From positions 1 through 24,271 of IMG/VR virus record IMGVR_UViG_3300023174_000615: a DNA stretch of 24,271 nucleotides, one strand, 5' to 3'. This DNA is from a virus. The notes under the pieces were generated by a model that did no database searches, had not been told where the DNA came from, and worked only from the letters and a program-made list of their open reading frames with translations. This document shows positions 14,220 to 22,829 of this stretch, in pieces; within the stretch, counting starts at the first letter, position 1, and every line of letters begins with the position of its first letter. The position numbers were made by a program, and so were the translations under genes.

Positions 14220-16040
14220 TTATGCTCCTGGTTGTTGTGGTGTTGTGTCCGTTATGGGACCACCTGCGACCCATGCGTCACAGGTTCTTGTGCTCTTGCA
14301 CTTGAAGTCAAATGCTTCACAGTAGCCCAGTTGGCCACCGCCTACACTATCCCATTCATCGCCAGTGGCTCCACCAGCTGATAAACCTGCGTCAATGCAA
14401 TCTAGTATTGGTGTAGTCTGATCAAAGAATGAGCAGTTGCCACAAAGACTTTGCCGGGCTGTGGCAGGAGTTGTGTTCCACATGTCAGCTTTGGCAGCCC
14501 AGAACACAGTGTTGGGCAGTGCAGGATTTAGTGGACCATAGTTGGCAGTGTCAATAGCAGTTTGTCTGTTGGCCAGATTAACACCAATGTCTTGAGTGGC
14601 AATAGGACAACCATCTGTTGCAATGGATTCAGATTCCTGATCAGGTGCTAACAATGCAGCCACTGCCAGGGCGTCAGCTGGTTCAATTGGCATGAGTGTG
14701 TTGATGATGTTGACTAGTTCGCCTGGCTCTTCACCTAGTGCTTCCAGCAGTTTGTAGTCAATCACAGCCAGCACAGCAGGATCAGTTGCAGTGGCTTTGG
14801 CAATTTGTAGTTGTTGGAATTCTTTTTCAGTATCACGAATATTGAATGAACCTGGGTATTCAATTTCACCATCCCATGTTGTGCCCTGATAGTGTGCAAA
14901 TATGCTCCAGATTTGTTCTTCCGCAAGTTCAAGCCCGTCGGCCTTGGCTGATAGTTTGGCATTGAGCAATTGAAATTCAGTTTCCATGGCCACACCACTC
15001 ATGCTTCTTGATTCTGTGGCACGGATGGCACCGGTGTTGGCCATCTTGTCAATCACACTCACAAGGTTTTGTTTCACACTCAACATGGCACCCAGTTCAG
15101 CACCATTGTAGTCCAATATATAGGGTTTTAATCCTGGATCTAAATTGTCAGGCATCTGTATAATGGATCCTGCACCAATGCCTGCTTGTGTTTCAGGTGT
15201 CTTAACGAGACTGGGGTGGCTGTCAATTCTAATGCTTTGTTCAATCTCACTGTTGATGTTGTAGAGCATGCGTTGTGTGTCAGCAATGTCAGTGATGTCA
15301 CTAACACCAATGCCACGCATGTTTGATCGCATGTTGTAGGCACACACAGCCGGAATGTAGCCCAGGCCATTGGGTTCCACAGTATCACTCCGGATGGATC
15401 TATTTTTGGTATCTACTTCAATGGTCTCAATGGTTTCTCGGGTCCAGATCTTGATGGTTTGTCCTGAATCAGTGAACTCTTCAATGTATTTGAAATAGTC
15501 TAGTTCATAAACACCTTGAGCATTGCGTCGATAGTTCCAGTCAGTCACTGCAAGTGGAGTCATTAGGTTGAGATAAGGACGCACACCTAATGCTTGTTCA
15601 TCAGCAAGTGTCACAGCACCTGTGTTGGGTTTGGCCACTAGAATCCAGCAGTGTCCAAATACACTGGCCCAGGTGGCCACATCCTTCATGAATGCATCTA
15701 GACTGCGACCATCGAGGTCAGCGTCTCGTAGGAATGATTCAGCTGAGGGTGATCCCTCTAGTGATCCTAGATCGCGATCAGGTTCTTCACGAAACAAGAA
15801 TGAGTTATACACCTGCACCACTGAGGCACAGTGATTGTCTAGGGGTGTGCTACGCAATCTAGCCTGATACTCAGCGGCGGTTTCCAATTGGTATCTTGTG
15901 AGATAAGCACCATCCTGGTATTCTTGACCGCCCATGTAGCTTTGGTAAAGATATTCCCAGCGTGGCCTGAAATCATTGTAAGTGGTATTGCTTGAAAGTG
16001 CGTCTGCAATTTGTTCGTCTATGGTTCTAATTGTGCTCAT
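14220..16040 (-). CDS. Portal protein with C-terminal cysteine-rich module
   Basis: 606 residues from MSTIRTIDEQIADALSSNTT (AAGGA lies 8 bases ahead); a longer frame to 16103 lacks a ribosome site. RWEYLYQSYMGGQEYQDGAY, YQARLRSTPLDNHCASVVQV and YNSFLFREEPDRDLG are typical of DUF4055-like portals. The crown and stem follow (IADTQRMLYNINSEIEQSIR, then MSGVAMETEFQLLNAKLSAK). The portal dodecamer is the DNA channel and motor docking site. The last ~75 residues are unusual: C533-x2-C536-SFF, C548, GYC574, C581 and C587-DAW, a spacing like that of a HiPIP-type iron-sulfur or a zinc-binding domain. It lies downstream of terL with an HNH gene in between on the other strand. Confidence 0.9.
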   Translation of the reverse strand: MSTIRTIDEQIADALSSNTTYNDFRPRWEYLYQSYMGGQEYQDGAYLTRYQLETAAEYQARLRSTPLDNHCASVVQVYNSFLFREEPDRDLGSLEGSPSAESFLRDADLDGRSLDAFMKDVATWASVFGHCWILVAKPNTGAVTLADEQALGVRPYLNLMTPLAVTDWNYRRNAQGVYELDYFKYIEEFTDSGQTIKIWTRETIETIEVDTKNRSIRSDTVEPNGLGYIPAVCAYNMRSNMRGIGVSDITDIADTQRMLYNINSEIEQSIRIDSHPSLVKTPETQAGIGAGSIIQMPDNLDPGLKPYILDYNGAELGAMLSVKQNLVSVIDKMANTGAIRATESRSMSGVAMETEFQLLNAKLSAKADGLELAEEQIWSIFAHYQGTTWDGEIEYPGSFNIRDTEKEFQQLQIAKATATDPAVLAVIDYKLLEALGEEPGELVNIINTLMPIEPADALAVAALLAPDQESESIATDGCPIATQDIGVNLANRQTAIDTANYGPLNPALPNTVFWAAKADMWNTTPATARQSLCGNCSFFDQTTPILDCIDAGLSAGGATGDEWDSVGGGQLGYCEAFDFKCKSTRTCDAWVAGGPITDTTPQQPGA

Positions 16041-16058
16041 TGCGAGTGTCCTTAATAA

Positions 16059-16087
16059 TTGTGTTTGTGGTAGTCTCTTGCTATAAT
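16059..16087 (+). promoter_or_regulatory. Plus-strand extended -10 promoter for the HNH gene
   Basis: TTGTGT (16059-16064), a 17-base spacer and TATAAT (16082-16087) preceded by TGC, so the -10 is perfect and extended. Transcription should start about 16094, which is the A of the HNH start codon, giving a leaderless mRNA. The promoter sits in the portal gene's upstream region on the opposite strand. Confidence 0.7.
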
Positions 16088-16093
16088 GTAAGC

Positions 16094-16537
16094 ATGGACA
16101 CAAACAATCTCATGACCCTTGCCAGATTTTGGAGGCAAGTAAAAATAATTCCAGAATCCAATAGCCCTGCTTGCTGGGAATGGCAAGGTAGCATGTCGCC
16201 TTCTGGTTATGGCATTTGTTGTGTGGGCAATAGCCAAACTGAATTGGCTCATCGCTATATCACTAGTATTACTTATAATATCCAAAATAAAGTGGTAGCA
16301 CATCAATGCGATAATCCCAGGTGCGTGAGACCAGATCATTTGTTTGTTACTGATCAAGCAGGCAATCTTTTGGATCAACGCCAGAAAGATCGTAAGCGAA
16401 CTATTCTCACGAGAACCAGTGTGCTGGATATCAGGACCCGACGACTGTCTCGTCCAGAATTTGCTAAACTTTACAAGTGTAGTGAATTCACAATAGGACA
16501 AGTGCAAAGGCGAGAAACTTGGCAGCATGTTACTTGA
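16094..16537 (+). CDS. HNH homing-type endonuclease with C-terminal DNA-binding helix region
   Basis: 147 residues, on the opposite strand to its neighbours. HNH_3-type core: ACWEW (C27-W30), SGYG (37-40), LAHR (51-54), then VVAHQCDNPRCVRPDHL (H70, C72, D73, N74, C77, P80, H82) and N91. The pairs of Cys likely bind zinc and H70/N74/H82 make the beta-beta-alpha metal site. Residues ~105-145 (SVLDIRTRRLSRPEFAKLYK, CSEFTIGQVQRRETW) form a helix-turn-helix like those that follow HNH cores in homing enzymes. The start at 16094 agrees with a perfect promoter; upstream in-frame codons are within the promoter. The 3' end overlaps terL by 8 bp. It is probably a free-standing selfish nuclease, though HNH proteins beside terminases can also assist packaging. 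Confidence 0.85.
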   Translation: MDTNNLMTLARFWRQVKIIPESNSPACWEWQGSMSPSGYGICCVGNSQTELAHRYITSITYNIQNKVVAHQCDNPRCVRPDHLFVTDQAGNLLDQRQKDRKRTILTRTSVLDIRTRRLSRPEFAKLYKCSEFTIGQVQRRETWQHVT

Positions 16538-19555: not shown

Positions 19556-19590
19556 TTAGTGCCTCTTTAAAGCGTTGTTGATAAGTGTAT

Positions 19591-19619
19591 AGTATAGCAC
19601 AGACTGATTTTGTGGTCAA
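19591..19619 (-). promoter_or_regulatory. Early promoter P1 (cassette copy 1)
   Basis: Reading on the minus strand: TTGACC (19619-19614), a 17-base spacer, TATACT (19596-19591) preceded by TGC, an extended -10. Transcription should start near 19584. The surrounding ~70 bases (19571-19640) are the same as those of copy P2 at all but about three positions, and the P1 cassette begins at the stop codon of the gene before it. Confidence 0.85.
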
Positions 19620-19626
19620 TCTGTGC
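19597..19626 (-). promoter_or_regulatory. Operator-like palindrome across promoter P1
   Basis: Two 11-base arms, GCACAGATTGA and TCAGTCTGTGC, pair at 10 of 11 positions around an 8-base centre. The palindrome overlaps the -35 and most of the spacer, so a protein bound here would block RNA polymerase. It is present in P1 and P2 but lost in P3. It could also form an RNA hairpin in read-through transcripts, but no T-run follows. Confidence 0.55.
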
Positions 19627-19635
19627 GTGTTGTTT

Positions 19636-19923
19636 TTACGCCACAGCCTGTTCAATGACCCGTTGTAAGGATCTATAACTCACAGGATATTTGGTATTGT
19701 CCAACACAATGGCATTGGAATAAACACCAATCTTTTTACCACTGGGCAACCGAACTTCTAATGTGCCCATACCTTGTATCTCGTATTCAACATCTTTGCC
19801 AGTGCCCAGTATAGGCACTCCTAATCTAACGGTCTTTTTACCACTAAAGGCAACATAGCCTTTGGTTGGATGATCCATTGTGCGATTCCAAACCTGGTCA
19901 ATCAGTTTGTCAAGTTGATTCAT
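19636..19923 (-). CDS. Hypothetical early protein (95 aa)
   Basis: MNQLDKLIDQVWNRTMDHPT, then KGYVAFSGKKTVRLGVPILG and YEIQGMGTLEVRLPSGKKIG, ending YRSLQRVIEQAVA. One helix opens it, then beta strands and a final helix, perhaps a small beta-barrel fold. No family is recognised. It has its own promoter (P2) and GAGGAGC ribosome site, so it forms a single-gene unit, although weak read-through to P1 genes is likely as no terminator follows. Its stop codon is part of the next cassette's edge. Confidence 0.7.
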   Translation of the reverse strand: MNQLDKLIDQVWNRTMDHPTKGYVAFSGKKTVRLGVPILGTGKDVEYEIQGMGTLEVRLPSGKKIGVYSNAIVLDNTKYPVSYRSLQRVIEQAVA

Positions 19924-19957
19924 TGTGTGCTCCTCGAAGCGTTGTTAGTAAGTGTAT

Positions 19958-19986
19958 AGTATAGCACAGACTGATTTTGTGGTCAA
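19958..19986 (-). promoter_or_regulatory. Early promoter P2 (cassette copy 2)
   Basis: TTGACC (19986-19981), 17-base spacer, TATACT (19963-19958) with TGC ahead. Identical hexamers, spacer and start region to P1. The predicted start is near 19951 with a ~28-base leader before the ATG of the 95-residue gene. Confidence 0.85.
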
Positions 19987-19993
19987 TCTGTGC
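19964..19993 (-). promoter_or_regulatory. Operator-like palindrome across promoter P2
   Basis: The same 30-base palindrome as in P1, arms GCACAGATTGA and TCAGTCTGTGC, in the same position relative to -35 and -10. Exact preservation in two copies suggests selection or recent duplication. Confidence 0.55.
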
Positions 19994-20002
19994 GTGTTGT
20001 GT

Positions 20003-20230
20003 TTACGCAACAAGTAAAGGGTTAAAGATGCGTTTGCTCTCGCGGTTGAGATCATTACAATCCCACTCTTGGTAAGCCAAACCAAACCAATCCCGGCCCC
20101 AATAGTTGGTGGCCATTGCCGCAATGAGATCTGGATTGTCGCTGTCAACTACAAATAAGCCTGTTGGGATCAAGTATTCCTGATCGCTATCTGAGTCATA
20201 ACCCAGTTGGTAAACCAATGTGCTCTTCAT
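20003..20230 (-). CDS. Hypothetical early protein (75 aa)
   Basis: MKSTLVYQLGYDSDSDQEYL, then IPTGLFVVDSDNPDLIAAMA, TNYWGRDWFGLAYQEWDCND and LNRESKRIFNPLLVA. It is acidic and rich in aromatic residues; no motif or family is recognised. AAGGAGC lies 6 bases before ATG. It is driven by promoter P3. Acidic small early proteins can be inhibitors of host enzymes, but nothing in the sequence proves this. A 67-residue ORF that overlaps it in another frame is a shadow. Confidence 0.7.
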   Translation of the reverse strand: MKSTLVYQLGYDSDSDQEYLIPTGLFVVDSDNPDLIAAMATNYWGRDWFGLAYQEWDCNDLNRESKRIFNPLLVA

Positions 20231-20244
20231 CCGGTGCTCCTTGA

Positions 20245-20310
20245 AGCGTTGTTAATAAGTGTATAGTATAGCAAAATGCGATTTTGTGGTCAAGCCGTGA
20301 TTTGTTGTGA
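20245..20310 (-). repeat. Promoter cassette repeat, copy 3 of 3 (diverged)
   Basis: Aligns to copies 1 and 2 over the leader, -10, centre of the spacer and -35, with changes clustered in the palindrome arms. The rest of the gap up to the next gene (20311-20409) shows a loose CTGACC/GGTCAG inverted repeat around 20340-20367 and no convincing gene. Confidence 0.7.
20265..20293 (-). promoter_or_regulatory. Early promoter P3 (cassette copy 3, no palindrome)
   Basis: TTGACC (20293-20288), 17-base spacer, TATACT (20270-20265) with TGC ahead. The hexamers, spacer length, the CCACAAAATC block and the leader TTAACAACGCTTCAAGGAGC are kept, but both palindrome arms have diverged, so P3 should escape any regulator that binds P1 and P2. 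Confidence 0.82.
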
Positions 20311-20409
20311 AAAAATAACACCTCCAGCACCCTGGGTAGCTGACCATGCAAAAAACCAGGTCAGAGGCGTTGTAAGTCATTGATTTCATTGAGGTTTTTC
20401 AGGCGTTTT

Positions 20410-21291: not shown

Positions 21292-22323
21292 TTAGTCCTC
21301 AAATACTGCATAATCAAGTTTGATTACAAATCCAGTTTGTCTTCTAACTTTTTGAATCAGTTCTACAGGATCCACTGCTTGATCACACTGCCAACCATCA
21401 TGCACCCAAAGAAATCTCAACTTTTGTTTCCTCAATGCCTTCTGAATAACTCGTGCTATTTGATTCTCAAATTGCCTGTAATAAGCACTCTTTTGTCTTG
21501 CACTTAATCTACGACATCTCAGAGATCCATTCTTGTCTATGCTCTTGTCACGAGGAAACTCATCTCGCAGACATTGCCAAAGTCTTTTGATATCTGCTCT
21601 AATCTCAGTCAATGTCTGTGATTGTTTGAGTCTATCAATCAAGGCATAATCTTGATCCAACGCACAGAACAACTTGTTGTTTCCCCAGGTGCTGATTATA
21701 CTACCTTGCAACAAGGCATTCATGACTCTTTTGATTTGATCTGTAGTGCAACTGGCTTCGTTGGCAATTTGATTTCTAATACTGGTGCGATCATCAATGT
21801 AGGCCTGCAATGCGGGTGCTTCAAAATCAATTTTGCATTGCTGTGCTCGTTGCAACAAAATTGTGGGGGCGGCGGCTTCAATGTCATAGGCATAACGATA
21901 ACCTGCATTGGCCAACAACGGACCTCGCACACGGCTGTTGATGAATTGAGCAGTGGTATACCAACGGTCGCTTTTGAGTTCGTATTCAAAATCACCTGTG
22001 TCAATTTGTGTTTGAATCTCTGATGTGGGTGTGTAGGTGCTGTGAATGCCCAACTGAGTTTTGAGTTCGTGTAGGTTTTGCTCACGCAAACGATATTTGA
22101 TGCACTGCCCTGTATTCATATTCCAGTGAGGGTCTGCTGTAGCTAGCAAGTGTGAGTCTAGCCAATTGCTCAAGGGATTGCTGAGTGTGCCAAACCAGGC
22201 ACGCCGTTGGCTTTGTGCTATGCTGTAGACCTGACGAGGTTTGACATACTGTTCAACAGCTTGAATGGCTGACATAGCCCGTCTGCGATTGCGTGGGTCT
22301 GAGAAGTTAGGTGTGTAAGTCAC
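21292..22323 (-). CDS. Minimal polymerase of the family A DNA pol / T7 RNA pol superfamily (TV-Pol-like)
   Basis: 343 residues from a GTG start (GGAG 6 bases ahead, 3 bases after the upstream stop). Three ordered motifs fit the palm of superfamily A polymerases. Motif A: YAYDIEAAAPTIL with D147. Motif B: IKRVMNALLQGSII with K198 and G207, the K-x8-G spacing and KR.VM start seen in T7 RNA polymerase (K631, G640). Motif C: FLWVHDGW with H308, D309. Spacing A-B ~50 and B-C ~110 residues. The N-terminal 130 residues (AWFGTLSNPLSNWLDSHLLA, KYRLREQNLHELKTQLGI) are helical. It is far shorter than usual members. TV-Pols (Iyer, Abhiman and Aravind 2008) are short viral and transposon members thought to be primase-polymerases; this gene fits that idea. 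No helicase or primase is near it. Confidence 0.65.
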   Translation of the reverse strand: MTYTPNFSDPRNRRRAMSAIQAVEQYVKPRQVYSIAQSQRRAWFGTLSNPLSNWLDSHLLATADPHWNMNTGQCIKYRLREQNLHELKTQLGIHSTYTPTSEIQTQIDTGDFEYELKSDRWYTTAQFINSRVRGPLLANAGYRYAYDIEAAAPTILLQRAQQCKIDFEAPALQAYIDDRTSIRNQIANEASCTTDQIKRVMNALLQGSIISTWGNNKLFCALDQDYALIDRLKQSQTLTEIRADIKRLWQCLRDEFPRDKSIDKNGSLRCRRLSARQKSAYYRQFENQIARVIQKALRKQKLRFLWVHDGWQCDQAVDPVELIQKVRRQTGFVIKLDYAVFED

Positions 22324-22326
22324 AAC

Positions 22327-22698
22327 TTACTCCAGTTCAAACAGGTTGTGGAATGTGCTAGATTGTGATCTTTGGTTGTTGATCACAGCACGATGTAGCA
22401 CACCTGCTTCGTGCTGACTGGCCAATTGGTCTGTCATCTCAGGCACTGCGTCTGCTGTGACCACTGCACGATGGTGGCGTGTGTTGCGTTGCACTATGTT
22501 GAGCCCTGTGTAGACTCCATAGGGATTTGGAGCATATATCAAGGGCTCCCAAGCAGGGAAGTTACGCATGGTGGTGTCAACTGTGGTGTCGTATGTGGCA
22601 CCTGTGTCTAGGTCAGTCCAACTGAATCTCCAGTATGTGCCGCCAGTGATCTTACTGGCAGTGGCAGGAGTGCGATTGGTGAGTAATAGTCGTTTCAT
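22327..22698 (-). CDS. Hypothetical protein paired with the polymerase-like gene (123 aa)
   Basis: MKRLLLTNRTPATASKITGG, then TYWRFSWTDLDTGATYDTTV, DTTMRNFPAWEPLIYAPNPY and NTRHHRAVVTADAVPEMTDQ. Beta-rich N-terminal part with several aromatic residues, consistent with an OB-like or other small barrel fold, followed by a helical, charged tail (LASQHEAGVLHRAVINNQRS). A single-stranded DNA-binding or accessory role is possible because it directly precedes, and is closely coupled to, the polymerase-like gene, but no family is recognised. It is the first gene after the early promoter at 22746-22774. Confidence 0.65.
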   Translation of the reverse strand: MKRLLLTNRTPATASKITGGTYWRFSWTDLDTGATYDTTVDTTMRNFPAWEPLIYAPNPYGVYTGLNIVQRNTRHHRAVVTADAVPEMTDQLASQHEAGVLHRAVINNQRSQSSTFHNLFELE

Positions 22699-22794: not shown

Positions 22795-22829
22795 AAAAAA
22801 AAATCCCCCAGACACAACTGAGGGATTTT
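22795..22829 (-). terminator. Strong leftward intrinsic terminator
   Basis: A 12-bp stem (AAAATCCCTCAG with CTGGGGGATTTT, one G-T pair) and 6-base loop followed by nine T on the minus strand. It stops leftward transcripts coming from the late fibre/lysis unit just before the early promoter at 22746-22774. It is partly active in the other direction because the stem ends in ATTTT there. Confidence 0.88.

Follow-up and report, generated by a model that had tools for sequence, protein, structure and literature searches.

A compact family-A polymerase of small environmental phages and its possible role as a TV-Pol-like primase-polymerase

The window analysed here (the whole stretch of DNA, one entire IMG/VR record of 24,271 bp) encodes a 343-residue protein, P0001, which by fold and catalytic residues is a polymerase of the family-A (Pol I/T7-type) superfamily. 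P0001 and its relatives form a real family of dozens of unannotated proteins, and the phages that carry them seem to bring no other copying enzyme. From the computed fold, catalytic residues, conservation, selection and gene content, we put at about 55% the probability that P0001 is an active minimal family-A polymerase with a winged-helix-like domain, working as a TV-Pol-like initiator primase-polymerase from which the host takes over.

Results

The open reading frame singled out in a preliminary description of this DNA is real and lies on the minus strand, which that description did not give. Its GTG start is supported by an N-terminus, MTY.PNF, that is common to relatives. The features of the gene, its product and the adjoining gene are as follows.

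21292-22323 (-): polymerase gene P0001, 343 aa, GTG start (ORF and translation, homologous loci, AlphaFold2, Foldseek)
22039-22323 (-): N-terminal domain (residues 1-95), whose predicted secondary structure resembles a winged helix (DSSP of the AlphaFold2 model)
21958-21981 (-): beta-hairpin, residues 115-122 (strands 115-117 and 120-122), with invariant Arg120 (56/56)
21868-21894 (-): motif A, residues 144-152 (strand 144-148), with catalytic Asp147 and, at D+5, Ala152 (both 56/56)
21703-21777 (-): fingers, residues 183-207, with Arg183 and motif B Lys198 (both 56/56) and Gly207 (55/56)
21394-21402 (-): motif C, His308-Asp309-Gly310 (56/56), at the turn of the palm hairpin (strands 304-307 and 310-313)
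22327-22698 (-): partner gene, 123 aa, directly upstream of the polymerase gene; product ends SSTFHNLFELE (iterated HMM and alignment)

Terminase, portal, capsid and tape-measure genes, identified in Pfam/PHROG scans, lie on the same strand as the polymerase gene, so the source virus is a tailed phage; as genes run off both ends, the record may be incomplete. An HNH endonuclease ORF on the opposite strand (16031-16537, +; PHROG 59, E 2e-19), likely a homing endonuclease, overlaps the terminase and portal ORFs at their ends. An intrinsic-terminator-like site (22800-22829, -), with a 12-bp stem and a T run, lies immediately upstream of the operon formed by the polymerase gene and its partner. 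Small early genes are preceded by an 83-nt block that is present in three copies on the minus strand (19563-19645, 19930-20012 and 20237-20319; 70-92% identical). Every copy carries TTGACC-17-TATACT with an extended -10, and we read the block as a repeated promoter module of host (sigma-70) type. No other repeated promoter-like element of at least 16 nt stood out in the window, nor did a repeat search of the window find an iteron array or iteron origin near the polymerase gene.

P0001 has no match among Pfam, PHROG, NCBIfam or PDB-sequence profiles, and as a single query it retrieved no relative from viral contigs or from 50,697 phage genomes. The family surfaced only once a terminase scan, which gave 53 relatives of the phage, had supplied locus L009 and profiles were used; L009 encodes a 393-aa homolog of P0001 upstream of its terminase gene (29% identity, E 7e-42). 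Profile searches then found relatives, 23-46% identical, at about 70 loci in IMG/VR viral contigs, and a repeat scan with a 56-sequence profile added no new branch. Prokaryote genome contigs, scanned with one short pattern, yielded no relative, a result from which, given that single pattern, absence from prokaryote genomes does not follow. We did not find the family described in the open-access literature that we searched.

In an alignment of 56 sequences (P0001 and 55 relatives from other contigs), 14 residues are invariant: Arg120, Gln126, Tyr146, Asp147, Ile148, Ala152, Arg183, Lys198, Trp249, Tyr282, Glu286, His308, Asp309 and Gly310. The motifs YDIEAAAPTIL (Asp147), IKRVMNALLQG (Lys198 and Gly207) and WVHDG (Asp309), on which the preliminary description had based its polymerase assignment, are at the residues it gave, and they exceed chance, because Asp147, Lys198, His308, Asp309 and Gly310 are kept in 56/56 sequences and Gly207 in 55/56. 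Both proposed catalytic aspartates are thus conserved in every aligned relative. The dN/dS ratios of comparable pairs (0.12-0.30) indicate purifying selection.

DNA_pol_A (PF00476) has no match above the Pfam cut-off in P0001, in the 56 family members or in 28 carrier records, comparison of family profiles with the PDB gave chance matches only, and hhalign of the family against T7 gp5 (E 0.025) and T7 RNA polymerase (E 0.23) was not significant. AlphaFold2 modelled P0001 with a pLDDT of 84.7 from 6 sequences and of 95.1 (pTM 0.84) from 56. Foldseek matched the latter model to T7 DNA polymerase (E 4.7e-5) and Bst Pol I (E 1.5e-4) with probability 1.00, and the first model to 1xwl (E 4e-5). Family-A polymerases (T7 gp5, Bst and Taq Pol I; E 4e-5 to 1e-3) take all the top places among the PDB matches, followed by mitochondrial RNA polymerases (E 0.01-0.1); TM-scores to solved polymerases are modest (0.3-0.5) and the rmsd is large. 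Among viral models (BFVD), which were searched with the first, 6-sequence model, the best matches were uncharacterised Caudovirales proteins (E 3e-12) and TV-Pol-type replication proteins of virophages, among them the Zamilon virophage replication protein (E 9e-7) and a Qinghai Lake virophage helicase/primase/polymerase (E 9e-6). The earlier proposal of a compact superfamily-A polymerase is therefore borne out by the fold match, the catalytic residues and the alignment.

In the model, residues 1-95 consist of helices 10-26, 37-44 and 50-59, strands 60-64 and 76-79 and helix 81-91 (DSSP), an arrangement that resembles a winged helix and presumably binds DNA. One short helix (101-109) separates this domain from the beta-hairpin, whose Arg120 occupies the position of the template-contact Arg of family A and TV-Pol. 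After the hairpin come the Asp147 strand, the helical fingers with Arg183 and Lys198, helix 275-299 with Tyr282 and Glu286, the strand-turn-strand of His308-Asp309-Gly310, a helix and a strand. We take the +4 spacing of Tyr282 and Glu286 to resemble that of N845/Q849 in helix Q of Pol I. No thumb is visible and there is no exonuclease, the winged-helix-like domain and the palm/fingers accounting for the whole protein. A family-B reading (DIxxAAPT resembling DxxSLYPS, KxxxNA resembling KxxxNS) was rejected, because polymerase alpha (E about 0.03-0.08) comes far below family A in the Foldseek ranking and the spacing from Lys to Gly is that of family A.

The active site combines features that are strictly kept with others that are missing. 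The +9 spacing of Lys198 and Gly207 is the same as in T7 gp5 (K522) and T7 RNA polymerase (K631), in agreement with the spacing noted before for the latter. The Arg expected four residues before the Lys is conserved nowhere in the family, this position being mostly E, P, V, L or T (Thr194 in P0001, as previously noted), and it is also absent from Ma-LMM01 gp030, P0004 and a protein of Desulfovibrio phage 7757, all described below; an invariant Arg183 sits 15 residues upstream of Lys198. The preliminary description had taken the missing Arg to leave activity uncertain, a doubt that is settled in part: an Arg missing across an otherwise strictly conserved family does not speak for an inactive enzyme. 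There is no Tyr at K+8 (Y639 of T7 RNA polymerase), so that the RxxxK-with-Tyr form of motif B is absent, and position 178 is Asp or Asn (25/24), so that a fingers Asp is not invariant. At D+5, a position with Glu in Pol I and T7 gp5 and Gly542 in T7 RNA polymerase, all 56 sequences have Ala (Ala152); at K+4 (position 202) 54/56 have Asn or Thr (Asn202 in P0001), with no Phe/Tyr. The family lacks the ribose-discriminating residues of the E710 and F762 type, and relaxed sugar selection can be predicted. We keep the family in superfamily A, as a divergent branch, because the fold and the catalytic aspartates are present although the motif-B sequence is not.

One polymerase copy was found in each of 27 carrier records. 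DNA_pol_A is absent from the 28 carriers scanned; D5_N and Helicase_C occur in 0/30 records, and DnaB_C in only one (of 101 kb) among 30. From ten carriers, 76 representatives of other ORF clusters (at least 150 aa long) were scanned against Pfam; the 25 of 30 matched families listed were structural, methylase, glycosyltransferase and similar ones and included neither a helicase nor a primase nor a replication polymerase. The carriers in which the family enzyme is the only polymerase found are contigs of 20-52 kb; as these contigs are linear and perhaps incomplete, the assemblies could have missed a helicase. For the window, the suggestion that P0001 is the sole replication enzyme stood up in that it is the only recognisable one of its contig (Pfam, PHROG and helicase/polymerase profile scans).

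A related phage, L046, whose TerL is 56% identical to that of the window, has no P0001 homolog. The corresponding region, upstream of terL, encodes a 403-aa protein, P0004 (L046:6136-7347), with the same motif order (E 1.5e-6 against the A3 profile; hhalign E 3.4e-5), and a member of the partner-gene family lies about 1 kb away. On these similarities L046 seems to carry a different family-A-like polymerase in place of the P0001 family; a single-sequence scan of viral contigs found no further relative of P0004. A 767-aa protein of Desulfovibrio phage 7757 (L127:2194-4497) also aligns with the family (hhalign E 1.5e-11). Both proteins, which are family-A-like polymerases outside the P0001 family, share with P0001 the hairpin, motif A, a fingers Lys with Gly at +9 and an HD motif C, and both are likewise unannotated; their flanking domains are longer or different, and the Desulfovibrio phage protein has the motif-B Tyr that the P0001 family lacks.

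By iterated HMM the partner family comprises 11 members; seven other carriers have one close to their polymerase gene, and L046 and L003/L004 encode members as well. Searches of PDB, PHROG and Pfam assigned the partner protein to no known family, and neither these searches nor comparison with T7 gp2.5 supported a single-stranded DNA-binding protein; we consider it a probable accessory protein of the polymerase. Near the polymerase, small proteins from two or more families with no apparent relationship to each other have (F/Y)xxLF at the C-terminus, in many cases with E or D after it (the product of 22330-22698 in the window, and loci L057, L060, L070, L071, L073, L074, L076, L077, L079, L081, L089, L095, L112 and L121). 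Close to the polymerase, a looser LF-tail pattern shows an enrichment of about 2.5-fold (40/394 vs 14/318); its p of 0.004 is optimistic, since examples had been seen before the pattern was picked and the 40 include mutual homologs. Such tails may serve for docking to the polymerase or to the host sliding clamp.

Discussion

In 2008 Iyer, Abhiman and Aravind (PMC2579912) predicted that family-A enzymes of mobile elements act in priming. They described TV-Pols as having a fingers Asp with RxxxK, a thumb at the N-terminus made of two antiparallel helices, neither an exonuclease domain nor a link to one, and an association with a D5-like helicase, or with a helical N-terminal domain and a recombinase. 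P0001 shares with TV-Pols the compact exonuclease-free palm/fingers, the hairpin Arg, the two catalytic Asp and the occurrence in small viruses or mobile elements, and virophage TV-Pol members are good structural matches (Zamilon, as above). It differs in having neither a conserved RxxxK Arg nor an invariant fingers Asp, in having no D5 helicase, fused or elsewhere in the contigs, and, apparently, in a winged-helix-like N-terminal domain standing where a thumb would be. The TV-Pol-like character put forward in the preliminary description thus stands as resemblance, virophage TV-Pol models being among the best matches, and fails as membership in the sense of 2008, for want of the RxxxK Arg and the D5 helicase. 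As RxxxK with the fingers Asp and the D5 link are both absent, we treat the family as a distinct TV-Pol-like branch.

The hypothetical protein gp030 of Ma-LMM01 (L128:22746-24266), encoded beside transposase genes, has TV-Pol-like motifs and is probably the protein that Iyer et al. had in view as a TV-Pol; copies are found at 16 viral-contig loci, nearly all 91-94% identical. It shows YDVV..H, K........GA and HDG in the order of P0001, although its link to the family is weak (hhalign E 1.3e-3, probability 19%). The divPolA2 proteins of barbaviruses and vibriophages (PMC11348598) are also small phage PolA enzymes with an active palm, an N-terminal domain of their own, no exonuclease and no ordinary thumb, and the polymerase of Rheinheimera phage Barba31A, probably a divPolA2, is in the BFVD list (E 1.9e-3). 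The profile link to the divPolA2 representative AUR84708 is weak (E 0.036), and divPolA2 sits beside a regular PolB in barbavirus genomes of 80-85 kb, whereas the P0001 family provides the only polymerase found in contigs of 20-52 kb. The family is thus near TV-Pol and divPolA2, a member of neither as defined, and may well work like TV-Pol.

In CCPol-MP of SCCmec, a demonstrated primase-polymerase, and in PolA-SSB of SCCmec and other mobile elements, a small partner gene adjoins a family-A polymerase, as it does here (PMC7581432, PMC10061031). CCPol, however, keeps E174/F225, equivalent to E710/F762 of Pol I (PMC7581432), and has a helicase encoded alongside it; in P0001 the two residues are Ala152 and Asn202, and no helicase was found with it. 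DNA polymerase I and T7 gp5 (PF00476) share the palm/fingers fold, the K...G of motif B and the HD of motif C; unlike them, P0001 has no PF00476 match, exonuclease, steric-gate Glu, motif-B Arg or Tyr.

For P0001 we favour a TV-Pol-like initiator primase-polymerase. The N-terminal domain would set the enzyme on phage DNA, and the palm, with Asp147 and Asp309, two metal ions and Lys198 for the incoming nucleotide, would make a primer or a short new strand, from which host helicase and replisome would continue replication. We propose this hand-over because no helicase, primase or other polymerase was found in the phage. A bolder version, which we think rather less likely, is a self-contained initiator in which the family-A core, placed by an origin-binding winged helix, would prime with ribo- or deoxyribonucleotides without a phage helicase, and the F..LF tail of the partner may dock on the host sliding clamp.

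The main rival to priming is a primer-dependent DNA polymerase, which would copy phage DNA or fill gaps from host primers. The invariant residues do not discriminate between priming and primer extension, the closest solved folds are primer-dependent DNA polymerases, and TV-Pol priming rests on one characterised system, in which the complex of CCPol with its partner MP was the primase (PMC10061031, PMC7581432). We nevertheless find such an enzyme doubtful here: it would have neither the exonuclease nor the visible thumb of processive replicases, no helicase gene was found to support it, and the Glu and Phe/Tyr used against ribonucleotides are missing. Their absence bears on another reading, that of a T7-like single-subunit RNA polymerase for phage transcription with the N-terminal domain as promoter reader. 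Ala152 is small, as is Gly542 of T7 RNA polymerase, and there is no Pol I-type Glu; mitochondrial RNA polymerases are among the Foldseek matches, and the same possibility was raised by the authors of divPolA2 for their related group (PMC11348598). This is unlikely, however, since the early genes downstream carry repeated promoters of apparent sigma-70 type, for which host RNA polymerase suffices, no other repeated promoter stood out, the motif-B Tyr is absent and P0001 is far smaller than known single-subunit RNA polymerases.

P0001 could also serve in repair or lesion bypass and be dispensable for genome replication. A repair role has been proposed for divPolA2 of larger phages (PMC11348598), and the absent exonuclease domain would fit. 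We think this very improbable for an enzyme that is the only polymerase found in its contigs, where barbaviruses also have a regular PolB, and whose place is taken by a different polymerase in L046. That P0001 is no polymerase at all, its motifs being coincidental or its palm catalytically dead, is hardly credible given a fold match of probability 1.00, the two catalytic Asp and the Lys kept in 56/56 sequences, and purifying selection. The missing motif-B Arg and Tyr and the lack of any profile match speak for it, although the missing Pfam match is uninformative because gp030 and divPolA2, accepted or likely relatives, have none either.

P0001 represents the probable replication enzyme of small environmental phages in which current annotation recognises no replication gene. 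Its very small family-A core, lacking the motif-B Arg and the residues used against ribonucleotides, raises the question of what a family-A polymerase can do without. It also raises the question of whether family-A primases exist outside SCCmec, as predicted in 2008 and with one confirmed case, CCPol-MP, in the literature consulted. If the self-contained initiator is true, a family-A initiator-primase would take on a task that otherwise falls to DnaG, AEP or Rep proteins.
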